From the NCBI RefSeq assembly GCF_003425985.1, contig NZ_CP022985.1:2269501-2333500 (forward strand): a stretch of DNA of 64,000 bases. Reading direction: 5' to 3'. The notes beneath the pieces were generated by a model. That model was not told the origin of the DNA and made no database searches. It was given only the letters and a program-made list of their open reading frames with translations. A program made the position numbers and the translations under genes. Shown here piece after piece: positions 54,889 through 62,591 of the stretch. How positions within the stretch are numbered: position 1 is the stretch's first letter; each line of letters begins with the position of its first letter. The stretch comes from Mariniflexile sp. TRM1-10. GTDB taxonomy: Bacteria; Bacteroidota; Bacteroidia; Flavobacteriales; Flavobacteriaceae.

Positions 54889-56019
54889 ATGATACAACCA
54901 ACAACGTTTTACATAGCATTGGGCAGTAATAAAGGAGATAAATTTAAAAACCTTCAAGATGCCATCGATTTAATTCATGTTAAAATCGGGAATATTATCC
55001 GCATTTCAAAGGTTTATAAATCGCCTGCATTTGGTTTTGAAAGCGACGATTTTTTTAACGCCTGTTTGGTTTTAGAAAGTCATTTAGAACCCGAAACCCT
55101 ACTTCAGCAATTATTGGCTATCGAAACCATTTTAGGACGTGTGCGTACCCAGAAAAGTACTTACGAAGCCCGAAGCATCGATTTAGATATTATTTTGGTA
55201 GAAGACCATGTTTTGAATACAGCCACCTTGCAAGTGCCACACCCCGAAATGCAAAATCGTAAGTTTGTATTGTTGCCGTTACACGATATTGCAGCCCAGG
55301 TAAAACACCCCCTATTACATAAAAATGTTGCTGATTTATTAGCCGAATGCGACGATGATAGCGTTTTGGAACCCATTAATATTTGGTTGAAAAACCCTAT
55401 TAAAGACTACCATTTTTCAAAGTATGATTTCATAGCCATTGAAGGCAATATAGGTGCAGGAAAAACCAGTTTAGCGACCAAAATTGCACACGATTTTAAT
55501 GCCAAACTTATTTTAGAACGCTTTGCCGACAACCCGTTTTTGCCCAAATTTTATAGCGATACACAGCGGTATGCCTTTCCTTTGGAAATGAGTTTTTTGG
55601 CAGACCGTTACCAACAAATTAGCGACGATTTATCGCAACTCGATTTATTTAAGGATTTTATTGTAAGTGATTATGATGTGTTTAAATCGCTGATATTTTC
55701 TAAAATTACCTTGCAAGAAGATGAGTTTAAGCTCTACCGCAAACTTTTTTACTTAATGTATAAAGACTTGCGTAAACCCGATTTGTATGTGTATTTATAT
55801 CAAAACACTGCACAATTGCAAGAGAACATTAAAAAACGCGGACGTGATTACGAACAGCACATTACCAACGATTATCTTGAAAAAATAAATGCGGGTTATT
55901 TAGAATTTTTAAAAAGCCAAACCGACTTTAATGTCAAAATTATTGATATTTCCGATAGGGATTTTATTGAAAATAGAAGTGATTATTTATGGGTTTTGGG
56001 AGAGGTTTGTGGGGAGTGA
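54889..56019 (+). CDS. folK: FolK-deoxynucleoside kinase fusion
   Basis: Residues about 1-165 are HPPK (FolK), which pyrophosphorylates 6-hydroxymethyl-dihydropterin in folate synthesis: FYIALGSNKGDKFKNLQDA, VYKSPAFGFESDDFFNACL, ILGRVR, RSIDLDIILVED, HPEMQNRKFVLLPL. Residues about 178-376 are a deoxynucleoside kinase with Walker A EGNIGAGKTS, the ERFADNPFLPKFY loop and the lid region KKRGRDYEQ. The fusion is known in Bacteroidota. I chose the ATG at 54889; a TTG at 54877 adds four residues. It converges on the methyltransferase gene of the defence-like operon. Confidence 0.93.
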   Translation: MIQPTTFYIALGSNKGDKFKNLQDAIDLIHVKIGNIIRISKVYKSPAFGFESDDFFNACLVLESHLEPETLLQQLLAIETILGRVRTQKSTYEARSIDLDIILVEDHVLNTATLQVPHPEMQNRKFVLLPLHDIAAQVKHPLLHKNVADLLAECDDDSVLEPINIWLKNPIKDYHFSKYDFIAIEGNIGAGKTSLATKIAHDFNAKLILERFADNPFLPKFYSDTQRYAFPLEMSFLADRYQQISDDLSQLDLFKDFIVSDYDVFKSLIFSKITLQEDEFKLYRKLFYLMYKDLRKPDLYVYLYQNTAQLQENIKKRGRDYEQHITNDYLEKINAGYLEFLKSQTDFNVKIIDISDRDFIENRSDYLWVLGEVCGE

Positions 56020-56126
56020 TTGGCTTATGCTTAACGATATTTTACACTGGCTTTTTTTCGTTCTGTTTGGTTTTCAGCGTTGGAAAAAGATATATGTTCT
56101 TTTGTGATTTTTGGTTTAGCGTTGGG

Positions 56127-57965
56127 TTATCTTACTTTTACTTCATATTTATACTCGAAAAATTCATTTAAAATATCTTGGTCGGTCTCTTCTATTAAGA
56201 ATTTATTTTCGTCTTGTGTCAATTCGCAAACACCAAAATTTCTGATGTAATTTCCATTTAATGAATAGTAGTTTGAAGAGTAAGGTTTGCTTGTGGTCTT
56301 GATGTAGTACCAAAAGATATTCGACTCCATAATCTTTTTAATGATTTTCATTTCTATTTCAGAACTTCCAACAACTGCTAATCCATTATAAAAAAGTAAG
56401 TCATCATCCGAATTGATAATGAAATTGGGTGTCCTGTCAGAATATTTAGGAAAGAACATTTTGTTCTTTATCTTCTCCAAAGATTGAGTTCTACCAAATG
56501 CAAACCAGTTTTCATAGTTCCCCTTACCTTTATCCCTTTCTGACAGCATTTTTCTTTTATTTTGAAAATATTTGTAGGCTTCGGGGAAGTTTTCTTTGAT
56601 TAATTCTTCTTCTAGAATTTTAGGTTTTTCTTGTTGGTCGTATGGGAAAATGACTTTCTCTTTTAGGTTGTTCAAACTAATCTCTCGACTTAACTTATTT
56701 GAATTGACAATGTCTTTGCAAATACCTTTTTCTATCTTATACAAACTACCATTTTGCAAGTAGAAATAGTTTTCGTCCTCGTCAACTGGTTTAAAAATAT
56801 AAATGTCATTCTTTAGTGTTGCTATGCCGTGTCTAGTTTGGTGAAGTTCGCCAAATGGAATACCCGTGGATTCAATTTTTGAAATGGTTTTATTGTCTTT
56901 TAAATTCCATCCTTTTCTAGAATCAAGATTTTTATAATTCACCTTTTTAAAGGATTGTTTTCTCTTTAACTTATCACTTTCAGAGGTATTATATGTAATG
57001 AAATGCTGGTTTCTATTTTCAATGAAACAAATACAAGTGTATGTATTTTTTGATTTGAAAATTTGTTCTGACCCAAAGTCAATAATGCTGATAGCAAGTT
57101 GTTTTCTTTGGAAATAGCCTCTTAAAGCTCTTCCATTAAGGCTTTTGAAAAAGGAATTCATTGTGATAAAACCAAGGATTCCATTCTCAGACAAATTCTC
57201 AATGGCAATCTGAAAGAATGGAATATAAAGATCAGAATTACCAGATTTACAAACTTCCCAACCTTTTAATTTTTCTTTGGTTTCTTTATCAAGATTCCTA
57301 GCACAAACATAGGGTGGGTTTCCGAGAATGATATTAAAACCTTTAAATTCAGCAATTTTAATTGTCCAGTCAAAATCAAGAGAATCGCCTTGGAATAAAT
57401 TAAATTCAAATTTTATTTCGTCCTCGTTTGATTGTAAAGCCAAAAGCGAAAGAAGAAGCTTAGTTCTGTTGATTGAGTATTCTTGAATATCAATACCAAA
57501 AATGTTGTTTTTGAATATTTCTGCATAGGTTTTGCTGGTTCTCTTCTTCAATTCCTTTGAAGCATTGAATAAAAAGCCACCACAGCCACAAGCTATATCT
57601 GATATTAGAATATGATTTTTGAAACTTGTTGCTTTGGTAAAAGATTCTTTAACAATATAATCCCTGATTTTTTCAGGAGTATATATAGCTCCGTTAATTA
57701 TTCTATCAGCAGGAGAAATTACAAATTCAAAAAGTTCAATAAGTTCTTCAAAACCAAATTTTGTTGAATCAGAATTGATTACTAATATAAATTCAATTAA
57801 TGAGATGTATTCCTCTTTATCTGTTTGGCCAATTGAATACGACTTAAGAAGTTTATTTTTCTTAAGTTCCAATTTATTAATTTCAAGAAAAGCAGAAATA
57901 ATAAGTCTGTCCACATCCTTCGGGGTTGTAGAATATTTACTTAAATATTTGAATGCGTTTCTCAT
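56127..57965 (-). CDS. TaqI-like N6-adenine DNA methyltransferase
   Basis: The 612-residue protein is a class I, N6-adenine type DNA methyltransferase. It has a helical N-terminal domain (1-90), then motif X/I (GAIYTPEKIRDYIV; DIACGCGGFL at 123-132) and catalytic motif IV NPPY at 216-219. The C-terminal half (about 370-610) resembles the TaqI_C or Eco57I specificity domain (HGIATLKNDIYIF, VIFPYD, YYSLNGNYIRNFGVC). No nuclease motif is seen in it. It is the last gene of the four-gene operon and overlaps the HNH gene by 4 bases. It is probably the modification or targeting arm. Confidence 0.88.
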   Translation of the reverse strand: MRNAFKYLSKYSTTPKDVDRLIISAFLEINKLELKKNKLLKSYSIGQTDKEEYISLIEFILVINSDSTKFGFEELIELFEFVISPADRIINGAIYTPEKIRDYIVKESFTKATSFKNHILISDIACGCGGFLFNASKELKKRTSKTYAEIFKNNIFGIDIQEYSINRTKLLLSLLALQSNEDEIKFEFNLFQGDSLDFDWTIKIAEFKGFNIILGNPPYVCARNLDKETKEKLKGWEVCKSGNSDLYIPFFQIAIENLSENGILGFITMNSFFKSLNGRALRGYFQRKQLAISIIDFGSEQIFKSKNTYTCICFIENRNQHFITYNTSESDKLKRKQSFKKVNYKNLDSRKGWNLKDNKTISKIESTGIPFGELHQTRHGIATLKNDIYIFKPVDEDENYFYLQNGSLYKIEKGICKDIVNSNKLSREISLNNLKEKVIFPYDQQEKPKILEEELIKENFPEAYKYFQNKRKMLSERDKGKGNYENWFAFGRTQSLEKIKNKMFFPKYSDRTPNFIINSDDDLLFYNGLAVVGSSEIEMKIIKKIMESNIFWYYIKTTSKPYSSNYYSLNGNYIRNFGVCELTQDENKFLIEETDQDILNEFFEYKYEVKVR

Positions 57966-58522
57966 TGAATTGCTCTAAGATGTTTTTTGTAGTCATTATA
58001 TTTCATTGTGACAGCAACTAATAATTCATTTGCAATTGGATTGTTTGATTCTTCAATAAGTTCTTGAAGCGTAAACATCTTTTGTTCCAGTTGGTCTAGC
58101 ATCCAAATAATACTATGTCTCTTTAAGTACAATTTTAACTTGATATACATATACTTAGCTGAATCAGAATTATCTCTAGGATATATATTTCCTAAAATAT
58201 CTCTATAAAAATGTAAATTGTAATCTTCGTCAACTGGATCGATATAAGATCCAAAATCATCACTTTTAGCTCTATTAACATAGGAACAAGAGTATACTAA
58301 ATTCTTGTAATTCCTTTCTAGCTCTGGATATTTTGATTTTGGTTTAAAATGGTCAATTTGAAAATTAGTTTTCCCTCCAAACCAAAAATCTAGACAGTAA
58401 GTGTATCCGCATCTATTTTTGAAATCTTTTGCGAGCGAATCCTTATATCGTCTATAATCTGCCAGTTCTTTACCAGAATATGTTCTTTCCGGTGGTTCGT
58501 TTCGAAACAATATTTCACTCAT
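57962..58522 (-). CDS. HNH endonuclease
   Basis: The 186-residue protein has an HNH core with Cys38 and Cys43 (RCGYTYC), catalytic Asp57-His58 in QIDHFKPKSKYPE, and NYKNLVYSCSYVNRAKSD. The pattern resembles the HNH nucleases of retron and Septu (PtuB-like) systems. The second zinc pair is incomplete: Cys79 is present, but the expected second Cys is Val82. The C-terminal half is helical. The start overlaps the receiver gene stop by 4 bases and its stop overlaps the methyltransferase start, so it is translationally coupled to both. Confidence 0.8.
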   Translation of the reverse strand: MSEILFRNEPPERTYSGKELADYRRYKDSLAKDFKNRCGYTYCLDFWFGGKTNFQIDHFKPKSKYPELERNYKNLVYSCSYVNRAKSDDFGSYIDPVDEDYNLHFYRDILGNIYPRDNSDSAKYMYIKLKLYLKRHSIIWMLDQLEQKMFTLQELIEESNNPIANELLVAVTMKYNDYKKHLRAIQ

Positions 58523-59142
58523 CTTTTTTTACCTAATGATTTTGCTAGTTCATCAACTTTTTTAAGTAATTCAGAGAGTTCAGAGGCTTCTTTCTCATCT
58601 CGCAAAATATTTGAAATTCGACTTTCTTTATCTAAAGCTTTCTCTATTTTGGAATCAAGCTCTGCCAACTCTTCTTTTTCAGGAGCATCAAGTTTCCTTT
58701 TTTTGCTTTCAGAAATTAACTCTAAAAGCCTTTTTTCATCTGATTCTAATTTATGTTTATACTTTTCAATTTGAGCTTTAACTCTTTCTAAAAATTGTTC
58801 TCCCTCGTCCATCTCCTTCTTTTCATAAATAATATTTACATCTTCTCCTTTGGAGATAGCATCATCTTCGTAAGAAGTCAGAATGAATATAGGAAACCCT
58901 TCTCTTTTTTTTAAGAACAGGCTAACCAAATCAGTACCATCGTAGTGAACTGTAGAAAGTTGTTCGGCAAAATCAAAATCAGACACTATGGCATCAACGT
59001 GGCTCTCCAATATTTCATTACAAGTATCTTCAATGGAATCTTTTGGAGTAATGGGGATTACTTCAAAAAAATTATATGAAAAACGTTGAAACCTCCTCGT
59101 GTCGGATTGGTCTTCGTCTATATAAGCGATTTTGTATTTCAT
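58519..59142 (-). CDS. Receiver-domain protein with coiled-coil tail
   Basis: The 207-residue product starts with a response-regulator receiver domain (1-125): acidic pocket IDED (9-11), likely phospho-acceptor Asp55 in AIVSDFD, Thr in FILTSYED and Lys in IYEKKEM. The rest is a highly charged coiled coil (about 125-207, rich in Glu, Lys, Leu, Ser) and no DNA-binding domain. It likely relays phosphorylation from the kinase encoded 4 bases upstream to a protein partner, perhaps the HNH nuclease. That last step is inference. Confidence 0.8.
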   Translation of the reverse strand: MKYKIAYIDEDQSDTRRFQRFSYNFFEVIPITPKDSIEDTCNEILESHVDAIVSDFDFAEQLSTVHYDGTDLVSLFLKKREGFPIFILTSYEDDAISKGEDVNIIYEKKEMDEGEQFLERVKAQIEKYKHKLESDEKRLLELISESKKRKLDAPEKEELAELDSKIEKALDKESRISNILRDEKEASELSELLKKVDELAKSLGKKR

Positions 59143-59146
59143 TTCA

Positions 59147-61606
59147 TTAAAGATTATGCGGTAATGTTATTTTTAGCTTGAAATTGGGTCGAGATTGCAT
59201 TATCTCCACATCCCCATTATATTCATCTATAGTAGATTTCACAATCCACATGCCTAAGCCTGTACCAATTTTTTCCCCAGTCTTATCATCTCTTTTTGTG
59301 GTGAAAAATGGTTGAAATATTCTATTTGGTTCAGATATTTCTTCCAAAAGACCAGGGCCAAAGTCTTGATATACAATACTAATTCCATTTGTTTCGAGTG
59401 AATTAAATGCAAAACTTAGTTTTAACTCTCTGATGTCTCCAGAGTCTTTTCTTTTGTATGCATCAACTGAATTCGTGATGAGATTATTGAAAATTCCGTC
59501 TAAATCAATTTCGTGTCCTCTGAAATTGACTTCTGTAAATTTCCATTTGTCAATTGTCAATTTGATGTTTCGCCTTGAAAGTAAGGAACTCCATATTTTC
59601 TCTAGTCCTTCTATATATGTGACCATATTAATTATTCTTCTAGTTCTTTTATCTTTTCTTACTGATGAAATTGAAAAATCAAGCCAAGATTTCAACCTTT
59701 CATCTTGCTTTCGCATATCTGAAAGCATAACATAAGGATCAAAAAAATCTGGAAGTTCTTTTAGTTTTTCAATATCAATGACTTGTAATAGGACACTTTT
59801 TAATTCGTCAGTCCTTGGAAGAATACTATCTGTATGATTTCTAAATTCGTGAGCAAAAGATGTAACTATTAGCCCAGCACTTGCTAAAACTCTTAAAATC
59901 TTTTGTTCATCTTGCAACTCTTCAATATCTTCCTTGTATGCTTCAATTGCGCTTATCAATGTTTCCTGTTCAACCTTAGGATCGTTAGTGCTTGAATTAC
60001 CTTTAGTTTCTTTCTTATTTTTTATGATTTGTTCAGCATCTTCCTTTGCCTTTCTCTTTTTATTGTTTTCGTCATAAATTTTCTTGAGGGTCATCATTAT
60101 TTGATTCCTGTCTTGCTCAAAAATTTCAATAATGGATTTCAAAATTTCTTTAAATAACGAAAAAGTATCATTTTCTTGTAATCCTTCTCTGCTTGATTTG
60201 TCTTCAAAATTGATATTATCAATTCTCGAAATATTTACAATACCATAAACTTGTTGAGGTCGGACTCTATAGCCTGGTCTTGTTACCGTGGGGTTACTTA
60301 ATGCTCTTTTTCCTAAGTCCAACCAGTCAAATGAGCTACTTTTAGTTTCGCCATATGGTCTCACTCTAAAATTATCTCTGAAAATTTTAATTCCACCAAA
60401 CTTATCTAGCCAACTTGATCGATTACTATAATTAACGGCCTTATAAGGATACTTACTAATATCCTCATCTTTTTCCTGACCACCACCTCTTTTCATAAAG
60501 AAAAAGGAAAAAGAAAAAGCACCTATTTTGTTTAAGTTGTTGTTTTTGTCAATGTCTTTATAACCTGCAATTAAAGATTCTAATTTGGTCTTAATTTCAA
60601 ACATACCTTTTTCAAAAGCACTGAATTGATATTGAGGTTGATTGAGCTTTGAGTTCTCAAAAAAACCTAATCTTTTTAAATCCCCAAAGTTTAGTTCATT
60701 TCTGAAAACTTTAATACTTACAGATTGGTCTTCATTAACAATCGTTGAAATTTTATAATCAAAATCATCACATAAAGTTGGTAGAACCTTTCCGTATTTT
60801 TGAGGCTCTAATGTGCTAAAAAGAAATAATTGAAATATATTAGTTTCCAATGGAGGAACTAATATTTCCAGATTTGAGAATAGAGATTGTGTTGCTCTTT
60901 CATCCCAAGTGTCTTTAAGTTTGTCAATCGAAATTAAGGTTCCCTTTTCCTCTTTCCAATAATCAATAATTGGATCTTTTAATCCAGTGAAATTTTGCAT
61001 TTCAATAATTTCTCCCCAAAAATCACTATTGCCAATTTGAAGAGTTGCTTTGATATCCGATATGACTGCACCAGAGTTGTCAAACTGGTTCCAGTCTACA
61101 TCCCAAACTAAACTTTCAGAATCTAGAGTTTTTGTTAGCATTACACTAGACTTGCCAAGTCGGTCTAATGCAAATCTTCCAATTCCTTTAGCTCCAGTTT
61201 TAATTCTTGATTTAGTTTTAAAATTGATCTTCTTATCATCAGTTCCAATAGTCATCCATTGGTTCCGAATGATTTTTTCGGTCATGCCATCTCCATTATC
61301 TAAAATTCGAATACTATCGTTTACTGGATCAATTATAATAATACATACAGATGCATCAGCATCATAACTATTTTTAACCAATTCAATTATAGCTCCTTCG
61401 GCATTGGCAAAGTTTTCTTGTCCGATTAGACGAGCTGTTCTAGCCGAAACGGTAAATGGAATTTGGGTTATTTCTAATTTTTCGATTTCGTCATTGATGG
61501 ATGCGATCAAACCTGTATTAGGCTTATCCTTCTGTGTTTCTTGGGAAAGCCTTTTTTTAAGTTCTAATATCTGTGCTGCGTTATCCATTAAGCTATTTCT
61601 GTTCAT
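59147..61606 (-). CDS. Double-GHKL ATPase / histidine kinase
   Basis: The 819-residue protein carries two GHKL ATP-binding modules. The N-terminal one is Hsp90/MutL/MORC-like: N-box AIIELVKNSYDAD (about 72-84), DNGDGM (103-108) and GAKGIGRFA (138-146). A middle region and a Lys/Glu coiled coil (about 510-570) follow. The C-terminal one is a histidine kinase: H-box SFAHEFRN with His586, N-box NLITNSVDAYK, DFGPG (748-752), FFTTK and GTGLGM (781-786). No membrane helix is seen, so it is cytoplasmic. It opens the four-gene operon, with the receiver gene 4 bases downstream. Confidence 0.85.
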   Translation of the reverse strand: MNRNSLMDNAAQILELKKRLSQETQKDKPNTGLIASINDEIEKLEITQIPFTVSARTARLIGQENFANAEGAIIELVKNSYDADASVCIIIIDPVNDSIRILDNGDGMTEKIIRNQWMTIGTDDKKINFKTKSRIKTGAKGIGRFALDRLGKSSVMLTKTLDSESLVWDVDWNQFDNSGAVISDIKATLQIGNSDFWGEIIEMQNFTGLKDPIIDYWKEEKGTLISIDKLKDTWDERATQSLFSNLEILVPPLETNIFQLFLFSTLEPQKYGKVLPTLCDDFDYKISTIVNEDQSVSIKVFRNELNFGDLKRLGFFENSKLNQPQYQFSAFEKGMFEIKTKLESLIAGYKDIDKNNNLNKIGAFSFSFFFMKRGGGQEKDEDISKYPYKAVNYSNRSSWLDKFGGIKIFRDNFRVRPYGETKSSSFDWLDLGKRALSNPTVTRPGYRVRPQQVYGIVNISRIDNINFEDKSSREGLQENDTFSLFKEILKSIIEIFEQDRNQIMMTLKKIYDENNKKRKAKEDAEQIIKNKKETKGNSSTNDPKVEQETLISAIEAYKEDIEELQDEQKILRVLASAGLIVTSFAHEFRNHTDSILPRTDELKSVLLQVIDIEKLKELPDFFDPYVMLSDMRKQDERLKSWLDFSISSVRKDKRTRRIINMVTYIEGLEKIWSSLLSRRNIKLTIDKWKFTEVNFRGHEIDLDGIFNNLITNSVDAYKRKDSGDIRELKLSFAFNSLETNGISIVYQDFGPGLLEEISEPNRIFQPFFTTKRDDKTGEKIGTGLGMWIVKSTIDEYNGDVEIMQSRPNFKLKITLPHNL

Positions 61607-61612
61607 TATTAA

Positions 61613-61814
61613 TCAATTAGTAATCTGAACATTAAGTAGTTATGTAATTGAGGCTAATGTATTCAATGTGGGTTGTACATCCATTTGTACACCATCTTGA
61701 AATTGTTGCTTCATTCTTGCCAAGCTGTTTAGCAAGCCATTTACTGCTTAAGTTTTTTTCAACAAATACTACCTTGATTCTATTTATTGCTTGTTGCTCC
61801 TGTATAAATTGCAT
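61613..61814 (-). pseudogene. Broken XRE-family regulator gene
   Basis: The first 45 codons encode a good helix-turn-helix (INRIKVVFVEKNLSSKWLAKQLGKNEATISRWCTN). The frame then changes. In the intended frame the family sequence resumes as DVQPTLNTLASIT, meets a TAA, and continues LLNVQITN to a TGA at 61613-61615, 7 bases before the kinase ATG. A one-base frameshift plus one nonsense change would therefore explain a normal XRE gene ending just before the kinase gene. As it stands a 60-residue truncated peptide ending at 61632 could still be made. Confidence 0.75.
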
Positions 61815-61881
61815 TTGGCGTAAAGATATTGATTTTATATAAAATTAATCGGATAATTCTGTTGGGGCGTTGCGGTAAAAG

Positions 61882-61889
61882 CAAATATA
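61882..61889 (-). promoter_or_regulatory. -7 promoter element of the defence-like operon
   Basis: On the reverse strand TATATTTG fits the -7 consensus about 70 bases before the XRE remnant. I see no good -33 TTG at the right distance, so the promoter may need an activator or be weak. Confidence 0.4.
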
Positions 61890-62135
61890 CTTGATTAGGT
61901 CGGTTTTGAGTGTTGTGATGAGGCTCTTTTGATTTTGATAAAGCGTTGGTATTTTGTCATTCATTTTTCTGTTTGTTTACTGTCGGTTGTGTCGTCTTTT
62001 AGGACGAGGCACAACATTTAGCATACAAATCCATTTCAATAATTCATCCCCATCAACAAACGAATTTAAATACTAAAAGCTTAAAAGCTAGCAAAACTAT
62101 AAGCTAAATTTGTCCGTTCGAGTAAAATTCTTTTT

Positions 62136-62591
62136 TCAAGAATTATTACCGAGTTCTTCCGCTAGCCCGATAAGGATGCCTTCGATTCCGCGGATATAGC
62201 ATAACCGATACACGTTTTCATACTGAACCACTTCGCCAACAAGTTGAGCGCCATGCTTACTAAGCCTTGAGAGTACCTCATCAAGATCGTCTACGGTAAA
62301 CATAACGCGTAGGTAGCCGAGAGCGTTCACAGGTGCCATGCGGTGATCTGAGATGGTAGGCGGCGTGAGAAACCGTGAAATCTCGAGTCGGCTATGGCCA
62401 TCCGGTGTAACCATCATAGCGATCTCTACGTTCTGAGAGCCGAGTCCCGTAACGCGACCAGCCCATTCGTCTTCAACCATGGCTCGCCCTTCGAGCTTCA
62501 AGCCTAGCTCAGTAAAAAAAGAGATGGCGTCATCGAGGGATTCTACAACAATGCCTACATTGTGCATTGTGGGTAAATTATTTTTTGTCAT
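62136..62591 (-). CDS. VOC family protein (glyoxalase/bleomycin-resistance fold)
   Basis: The 151-residue protein has the two beta-alpha-beta-beta-beta modules of vicinal-oxygen-chelate proteins (MHNVGIVVESLDDAISFFTELGLKLEGRAMV; LGYLRVMFTVDDLDEVLSRLSKHGAQLVGEV). The enzyme activity cannot be predicted. Its base composition is about 48 percent G+C over 62161-62280, well above its neighbours, and G/C-ending codons are common. This suggests recent acquisition from another lineage. It is alone on the reverse strand. Confidence 0.9.
   Translation of the reverse strand: MTKNNLPTMHNVGIVVESLDDAISFFTELGLKLEGRAMVEDEWAGRVTGLGSQNVEIAMMVTPDGHSRLEISRFLTPPTISDHRMAPVNALGYLRVMFTVDDLDEVLSRLSKHGAQLVGEVVQYENVYRLCYIRGIEGILIGLAEELGNNS

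Follow-up and report, generated by a model that had tools for sequence, protein, structure and literature searches.

The paraMORC ATPases were described in restriction-modification (R-M) operons in 2008 (Iyer 2008, PMC2292703). In 2021, two-component-like HEF_HK (PF19191)/Response_reg_2 (PF19192) pairs, whose kinases are described as soluble and paraMORC-related, were reported beside R-M genes (Bellieny-Rabelo 2021, PMC8011034). Here we analyse a block of four genes in a 64,000-nucleotide stretch of contig NZ_CP022985.1 of Mariniflexile sp. TRM1-10 (hereafter the window). Arranged head to tail, the genes occupy 56127–61606 of the minus strand and encode a kinase, a receiver, an HNH nuclease and an N6-adenine DNA methyltransferase. 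The block is a real, conserved and mobile four-gene set, a variant within the paraMORC two-component R-M kind already known. Our best reading, to which we give a probability of roughly 0.55, is that it constitutes a mobile restriction-type defence in which the HNH nuclease would be gated by a His-Asp phosphorelay and the methyltransferase would give the self mark.

Recurrence and anatomy of the four-gene set

We collected related loci with a profile built from six kinases, which has 443 relatives at tblastn E ≤ 1e-3 in 84,980 species genomes. The best 80 of the 443, together with two loci on putative viral contigs, four further genome loci and two plasmid loci, make up 88 loci. The order kinase, receiver, HNH nuclease, methyltransferase is found in 79 of these, and likewise in L048, where the methyltransferase is split in two frames. 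Three loci have the methyltransferase first and four end at a contig edge after the receiver (L032, L037, L057 and L076). In the last, L054, neither methyltransferase profile finds a match, but an N6_N4_Mtase gene begins 3 bases beyond the HNH gene. All four kinds of gene are present in each of the 84 uncut loci.

Four more plasmid loci were added, from 20 listed of 225 matching plasmid records. One, on an Ensifer plasmid (L131), has all four genes in the same order; another, on a Klebsiella variicola plasmid (L012), has an N6 methyltransferase first, then the kinase in three frames, the receiver and the HNH nuclease. The other two (L011 and L010) are considered with the proposed mechanism. 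Overall, 92 loci were examined and all four kinds of gene adjoin in 86 of the 88 uncut ones; the grouping is not chance. These counts include three duplicate or near-duplicate pairs (L043/L014, L093/L092 and L086/L084), which were removed for later analyses, and as the loci were collected via the kinase they show the kinase's companions, not the frequency of the other genes without it. Median gaps across loci are 1, −4 and −4 bases. Single genes are short or broken in three loci (the kinase in L009, the receiver in L040 and the HNH gene in L044). Copies that look broken, among them one with a split HNH gene, occur in L009, L011, L012, L040, L044 and L048, some of which may be sequencing errors.

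The association also holds within the phylum. Among 395 genomes, the kinase is found at E ≤ 1e-30 in five, the window's genome included. The receiver profile matches the same five at E ≤ 1.1e-36 (next best 1.5e-8) and the HNH profile the same five at E ≤ 2.4e-54 (next best 7.8e-15), and the three matches adjoin in every one. All five HNH proteins were part of the HNH profile, whereas of the five receivers just the window's own was part of the receiver profile; the HNH scores are thus partly circular, though this does not apply to their distance from the next match. Relaxing the threshold to E ≤ 1e-5 gives matches in 53 (receiver) and 186 (HNH) genomes, of which the remaining ones resemble receivers and HNH proteins of a generic sort.

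For trees we used 78 complete sets (77 loci and the window), having excluded from the 88 loci the three duplicates and eight that were cut, split, short or without a profile match. A named phylum is available for 66 of the 78: Bacteroidota (53), Pseudomonadota (4), Campylobacterota (3), and one set each from Myxococcota, Bacillota, Thermodesulfobacteriota, Methanobacteriota, Auribacterota and Kiritimatiellota. Many sets come from metagenome bins, so the single odd phyla could be binning errors.

In the window, ORF (open reading frame) coordinates give intergenic gaps of 4, −4 and −4 bases on one strand, as first annotated, and the expectation that the genes are made together is supported by a single block resembling a transcription unit (Table 1). 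The annotation of the kinase as a GHKL ATPase was right as to family, but the protein has two GHKL modules instead of one, HATPase_c_3 (Pfam 5.2e-18) and HATPase_c (1e-16), both of which are present in 57 of 57 kinases scanned. Fold comparison of its predicted model aligns residues 52–508 with Hsp90, MORC3 and MutL and residues 571–819 with histidine kinases. N-terminal GHKL motifs are followed by an S5-like middle domain, the arrangement that defines MORC and paraMORC proteins. In the first module, E75 and N79 are kept in 76 of the 78 sets (two gaps), D103, G105 and G107 in 77 (one gap) and K140 in all; in the second, N708, N712, G750, G781 and G783 are kept throughout.

The window's receiver has no Pfam receiver match at E ≤ 1. 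A structure model nevertheless predicts a receiver fold and 29 of the 78 family receivers match Response_reg, which agrees with the CheY-like assignment made earlier. D55 and T89 are kept in all 78 sets, across which the two-component residue set is found (DHp His, N and G boxes, receiver Asp, Thr and Lys, and the acidic pair). The kinase–receiver pair is equipped with its catalytic residues. In the 340-amino acid (aa) receiver protein of L010, Response_reg and cREC_REC matches fall below the cut-off.

The HNH assignment stands (Pfam HNH 1.8e-4), and PtuB models of Septu are matched at up to 2.8e-15 (PADLOC 2.0.0). H58, N74 and N83 are kept in all 78 sets and Asp57 in 77. All four knuckle cysteines are present in 40 of the 78; the second of each pair is lost together in the other 38, the window included, and loss of just one of the two occurs in none. 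The methyltransferase, annotated as TaqI-like, is an adenine methyltransferase (Eco57I 1.2e-30, N6_Mtase 1.7e-18), but no TaqI-type Pfam model is among those listed. Type II methyltransferase models are matched at up to 1.8e-105 (PADLOC 2.0.0). The four NPPY positions are kept in 77, 78, 78 and 78 of the sets. The residues singled out for mutation in the initial annotation (His586, Asp55, HNH Asp57-His58 and NPPY) lie where it placed them and are conserved in 77–78 of 78 sets.

Table 1. Coordinates of the four genes, their predicted functional sites and the surrounding block, in window positions
Feature	Position	Strand	Description or basis
Kinase	59147..61606	-	819 aa; MORC/Hsp90-like GHKL ATPase and middle domain (about 52–508), helical linker, DHp with His586, C-terminal HATPase_c
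First GHKL module of kinase	61058..61402	-	Residues 69–183, HATPase_c_3
Codon of predicted phospho-acceptor His586	59849..59851	-	His in 78/78 complete sets
Second GHKL module, histidine-kinase catalytic domain	59159..59515	-	Residues 698–816, HATPase_c
Stand-alone receiver	58519..59142	-	207 aa; C-terminal helices; no recognised DNA-binding domain
Codon of predicted phospho-acceptor Asp55 of receiver	58978..58980	-	Conservation
HNH nuclease, PtuB-like	57962..58522	-	186 aa; profile matches and conservation
HNH Asp57-His58 codons	58349..58354	-	Conservation
N6-adenine DNA methyltransferase, Eco57I-like	56127..57965	-	612 aa; profile matches
NPPY catalytic motif codons, methyltransferase	57309..57320	-	Sequence and conservation
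Degraded remnant, small Cro/C1-type regulator gene	61640..61830	-	Frame broken, start codon lost relative to L017
DNA common to window and Algoriphagus ratkowskyi; probable transferred block	56117..61958	.	80% identity; absent at site in congeners

Comparison with described systems

The closest prior art is the HEF_HK/Response_reg_2 family. That system resembles the present set in having a kinase with HATPase_c_3, DHp and HATPase_c domains that adjoins a receiver-like gene in an R-M neighbourhood (PMC8011034). The Pfam models separate the two. PF19191 is matched at E ≤ 0.01 by none of 57 kinases, and by the window's kinase not even at E ≤ 1; PF19192 is matched at E ≤ 0.01 by none of 78 receivers, and the window's genome, G025 and G057 are without a PF19192 match. 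PF19192 exceeds its cut-off in seven of 296 genomes, with a C5 cytosine methylase beside the kinase in all seven loci. Kinases there are 966–1001 aa and receiver proteins 525–575 aa. In the present set, by contrast, the receiver measures 207 aa, the PtuB-like HNH nuclease is a separate protein and the methyltransferase is of the N6 type. Among the ORFs scanned in the seven loci, none matches the present receiver or HNH profile. The present kinase profile matches their kinases at 1.1e-30 to 5.4e-41, which makes the two kinds of kinase distant relatives. Of the 525–575-aa PF19192 proteins (L107–L113), two were scanned with Pfam; in both, the receiver match extends no further than residue 193, and nothing beyond it is matched.

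The paraMORC ATPases share with the present kinase an N-terminal GHKL ATPase followed by a middle domain, and are linked to nucleases and methylases (PMC2292703). The available description differs in naming neither a receiver partner nor a kinase half. It does give paraMORC1 a C-terminal extension and a possible placement with HNH genes (PMC2292703), and the present set may overlap with paraMORC1. VcSduA, a type I Shedu (paraMORC3) protein that protects against phages, has a GHKL ATPase proposed to gate its nuclease (PMC12137116). It differs in being a single fused protein with a PD-(D/E)xK nuclease, and the part of the source available mentions neither a phosphorelay nor a methyltransferase (PMC12137116). 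A further source deals with predicted defence systems in its Fig. 6F, whose legend names HATPase and REC domains; the figure may show a related set (PMC13092281).

The best-scoring relatives of the present HNH nuclease are the HNH effectors of Septu (PtuB) and of retrons. Those systems differ in that no PtuA ATPase or reverse transcriptase is among the four genes, judged by the matches shown; for PtuA this refers to the matches shown for kinase, receiver and methyltransferase (25 of 33 for the last). Detocs uses a histidine kinase and receiver in phage defence, with a nucleotide-degrading enzyme as effector. The Pfam domain of that effector is in none of the 78 receivers. The BREX core comprises PglX with BrxC, PglZ and other genes; here the methyltransferase is only partly PglX-like and no other BREX model is among the matches shown for the block. 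PADLOC 2.0.0 has no model that spans the kinase, its sole match (5.7e-7) covering residues 51–152. The initial annotation did not recognise the locus as BREX, DISARM, Septu, Detocs or a plain type II system; a view that nothing comparable is known is not supported, as kin have been published (PMC8011034, PMC2292703). A search of the full-text literature, outside which lay bioRxiv and most subscription journals, found no description of the four-gene set.

Co-variation, proposed mechanism and alternatives

Kinase, receiver and HNH nuclease diverge together. Correlations of pairwise identity are 0.72 for kinase–receiver, 0.72 for receiver–HNH and 0.60 for kinase–HNH, values reached by none of 1,000 permutations (highest 0.19). 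Correlations with the methyltransferase are 0.20, 0.15 and 0.10, the last of these for the HNH nuclease, which the methyltransferase adjoins yet hardly tracks. The receiver–HNH correlation holds given the kinase (partial correlation 0.51), whereas kinase–HNH drops to 0.16 given the receiver, the pattern expected of a chain from kinase to receiver to nuclease. Methyltransferase type, scored in three states of which the third is the methyltransferase-first order, changes at least 13 times on a quick kinase, receiver and HNH tree that carries long-branch warnings. Since methyltransferases are exchanged and the HNH nuclease nevertheless stays with its kinase and receiver, the nuclease itself is probably of low sequence specificity, and is unlikely to recognise a sequence that ties it to one particular methyltransferase. 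Within one methyltransferase class there is no sign that the recognition domain alone has been exchanged, as catalytic and C-terminal parts diverge about equally (median identity 0.49 versus 0.46, and 0.41 versus 0.39).

The block contains a kinase–receiver pair with its catalytic residues, and the nuclease and the methyltransferase, as separate proteins, accompany that pair in one mobile unit; a restriction or defence role, as the initial annotation proposed, is the best inference for the set. Recurrence in nearly the same layout across distant microbes suggests restriction defence in which a phosphate relay controls the nuclease. We infer the gating, its direction and action against phages. 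In the proposed mechanism the methyltransferase would put a mark on the host's DNA. Where DNA is foreign or lacks the mark, the kinase would close its MORC/Hsp90-like N-terminal half on that DNA, or on a complex that has bound it, and this closure would lead to autophosphorylation of His586 and passage of the phosphate to Asp55. The phosphorylated receiver would then license the HNH nuclease through protein contact to cut invading DNA, the nuclease probably taking its target from other components of the set.

Several observations weigh against this reading. A Rhizobium plasmid locus (L011) has the kinase in two frames, the receiver and the HNH gene but no methyltransferase profile match. A distant cousin on a Campylobacter plasmid (L010, 6992–11442) has a distant double-GHKL kinase, the 340-aa receiver protein and an adjoining C5 cytosine methylase, with no HNH match. 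Weak as they are, the methyltransferase correlations exceed chance (0, 0 and 1 of 1,000 permutations equal them), and the methyltransferase is loosely, not wholly, unlinked from the other three genes. Gene order is a confounder, as neighbours recombine apart less often and part of the correlation could follow from this. Phosphorylation turning the nuclease on and phosphorylation turning it off would both fit the sequences. The window retains only a frame-broken regulator remnant without a start codon, where the gene is intact in Algoriphagus; activity of the window's copy is thus uncertain. Finally, a scan of 128 neighbouring proteins, taken from 286 filtered neighbours (166 within 1,200 bases), gave only scattered hits among the 25 of 145 and 25 of 124 families listed: mads_2 (4), SoFic (3), Fic (3), methyltransferases (2) and Relaxase (2). 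The scan had no control set and we claim no defence enrichment from it.

Of the alternatives, one keeps the same anatomy and reverses the sign. The receiver, phosphorylated in normal cells, would hold the nuclease off, and invasion or loss of methylation would stop phosphorylation and free it. A potentially toxic nuclease would need such a safeguard, but a kinase active by default would burn ATP continuously, and we consider this arrangement unlikely. Rather more doubtful is a suicide defence, in which a largely non-specific HNH nuclease would destroy host and phage DNA together, the methyltransferase being a sensor or only an addiction module. By profile the nuclease is closest to the PtuB effectors of Septu and retrons (weakly so in the PDB, best E 0.0066), it is short (180–222 aa across the family) and the window's copy has no second Pfam domain. 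Against this, nearly every uncut locus carries a methyltransferase, suggesting that host DNA is spared.

The locus could also be an ordinary type II R-M system whose two-component pair merely tunes gene expression. R-M systems have controller genes, which a small Cro/C1-type or HTH_17-type regulator, an optional fifth gene of the set, resembles; one lies directly upstream of the kinase in 29 of the 82 relatives with enough upstream sequence, as counted by profiles built partly from the same loci. Nuclease and methyltransferase are both present, as separate proteins. A specific type II nuclease should, however, change together with its methyltransferase, whereas here it is kinase and receiver that the nuclease follows much more closely (0.10 with the methyltransferase, and −0.02 given the receiver), and no DNA-binding domain model is matched by any of the 78 receivers in a Pfam scan. 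We consider simple tuning improbable. A signalling role outside defence, in which the set would change the methylation or repair of host DNA and to which the action of eukaryotic MORC proteins on chromatin (PMC2292703) might point, is barely credible for genes that are patchy, mobile, plasmid-borne and differently sited among congeners.

If the phosphorelay-gated reading is correct, the set would be a restriction system under post-translational control by bacterial two-component signalling, with the cutter apart from the specificity module. This would help to explain how a restriction system outlives replacement of its methyltransferase, and would assign to the MORC/paraMORC ATPases of bacteria a biochemical role that can be tested. 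Several named, cultured species carry this compact set, with complete copies for example in Algoriphagus ratkowskyi DSM 22686 and Belliella pelovolcani DSM 46698, which leaves each step open to point-mutant tests. More tentatively, and at somewhat less than even odds, the set may represent a distinct, widespread and unnamed restriction class. In such a class a MORC-type clamp ATPase would sense unmarked DNA and drive a His-Asp phosphorelay, which would in turn switch on a PtuB-like nuclease, self and non-self being told apart through exchangeable methyltransferases of at least three kinds.

Mobility, site and neighbours

The four-gene block looks horizontally acquired. Five congeners have the same housekeeping gene but not the four genes beside it (about 10 kb seen in four, about 0.9 kb in G396). 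In G397, 440 bases, which include another small gene, separate the flanks that match window positions 56011 and 62718; this gap also covers the window's neighbouring gene at 62136–62591. G397 has a 43% identical kinase elsewhere and G396 broken, divergent matches, with none in the other three. The block matches Algoriphagus ratkowskyi in DNA (Table 1), and the named sets nearest to the window's are from Cyclobacteriaceae. G+C content per kilobase is 30–34% inside the block, 33–37% on one side and 40–41% on the other. No tRNA was found in the window, and the repeats listed for 55600–62300 are short or imperfect, with no attachment site identified among 20 of 29 direct families and 25 of 39 inverted pairs.

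Copies of the set are found on plasmid records, and a scan of putative viral contigs gave two loci (L097 and L098), each with all four genes. A phage origin was rejected, 50,697 phage records yielding two weak tblastn matches. The Salipiger kinase (L009, 6845–9166) is without its N terminus and lies beside an IS66 element. In L022 (10776–13496) and L079 (13185–15902), the gene immediately downstream encodes a protein of about 906 aa that has TPR repeats and matches STAND/NACHT-like ATPases weakly.

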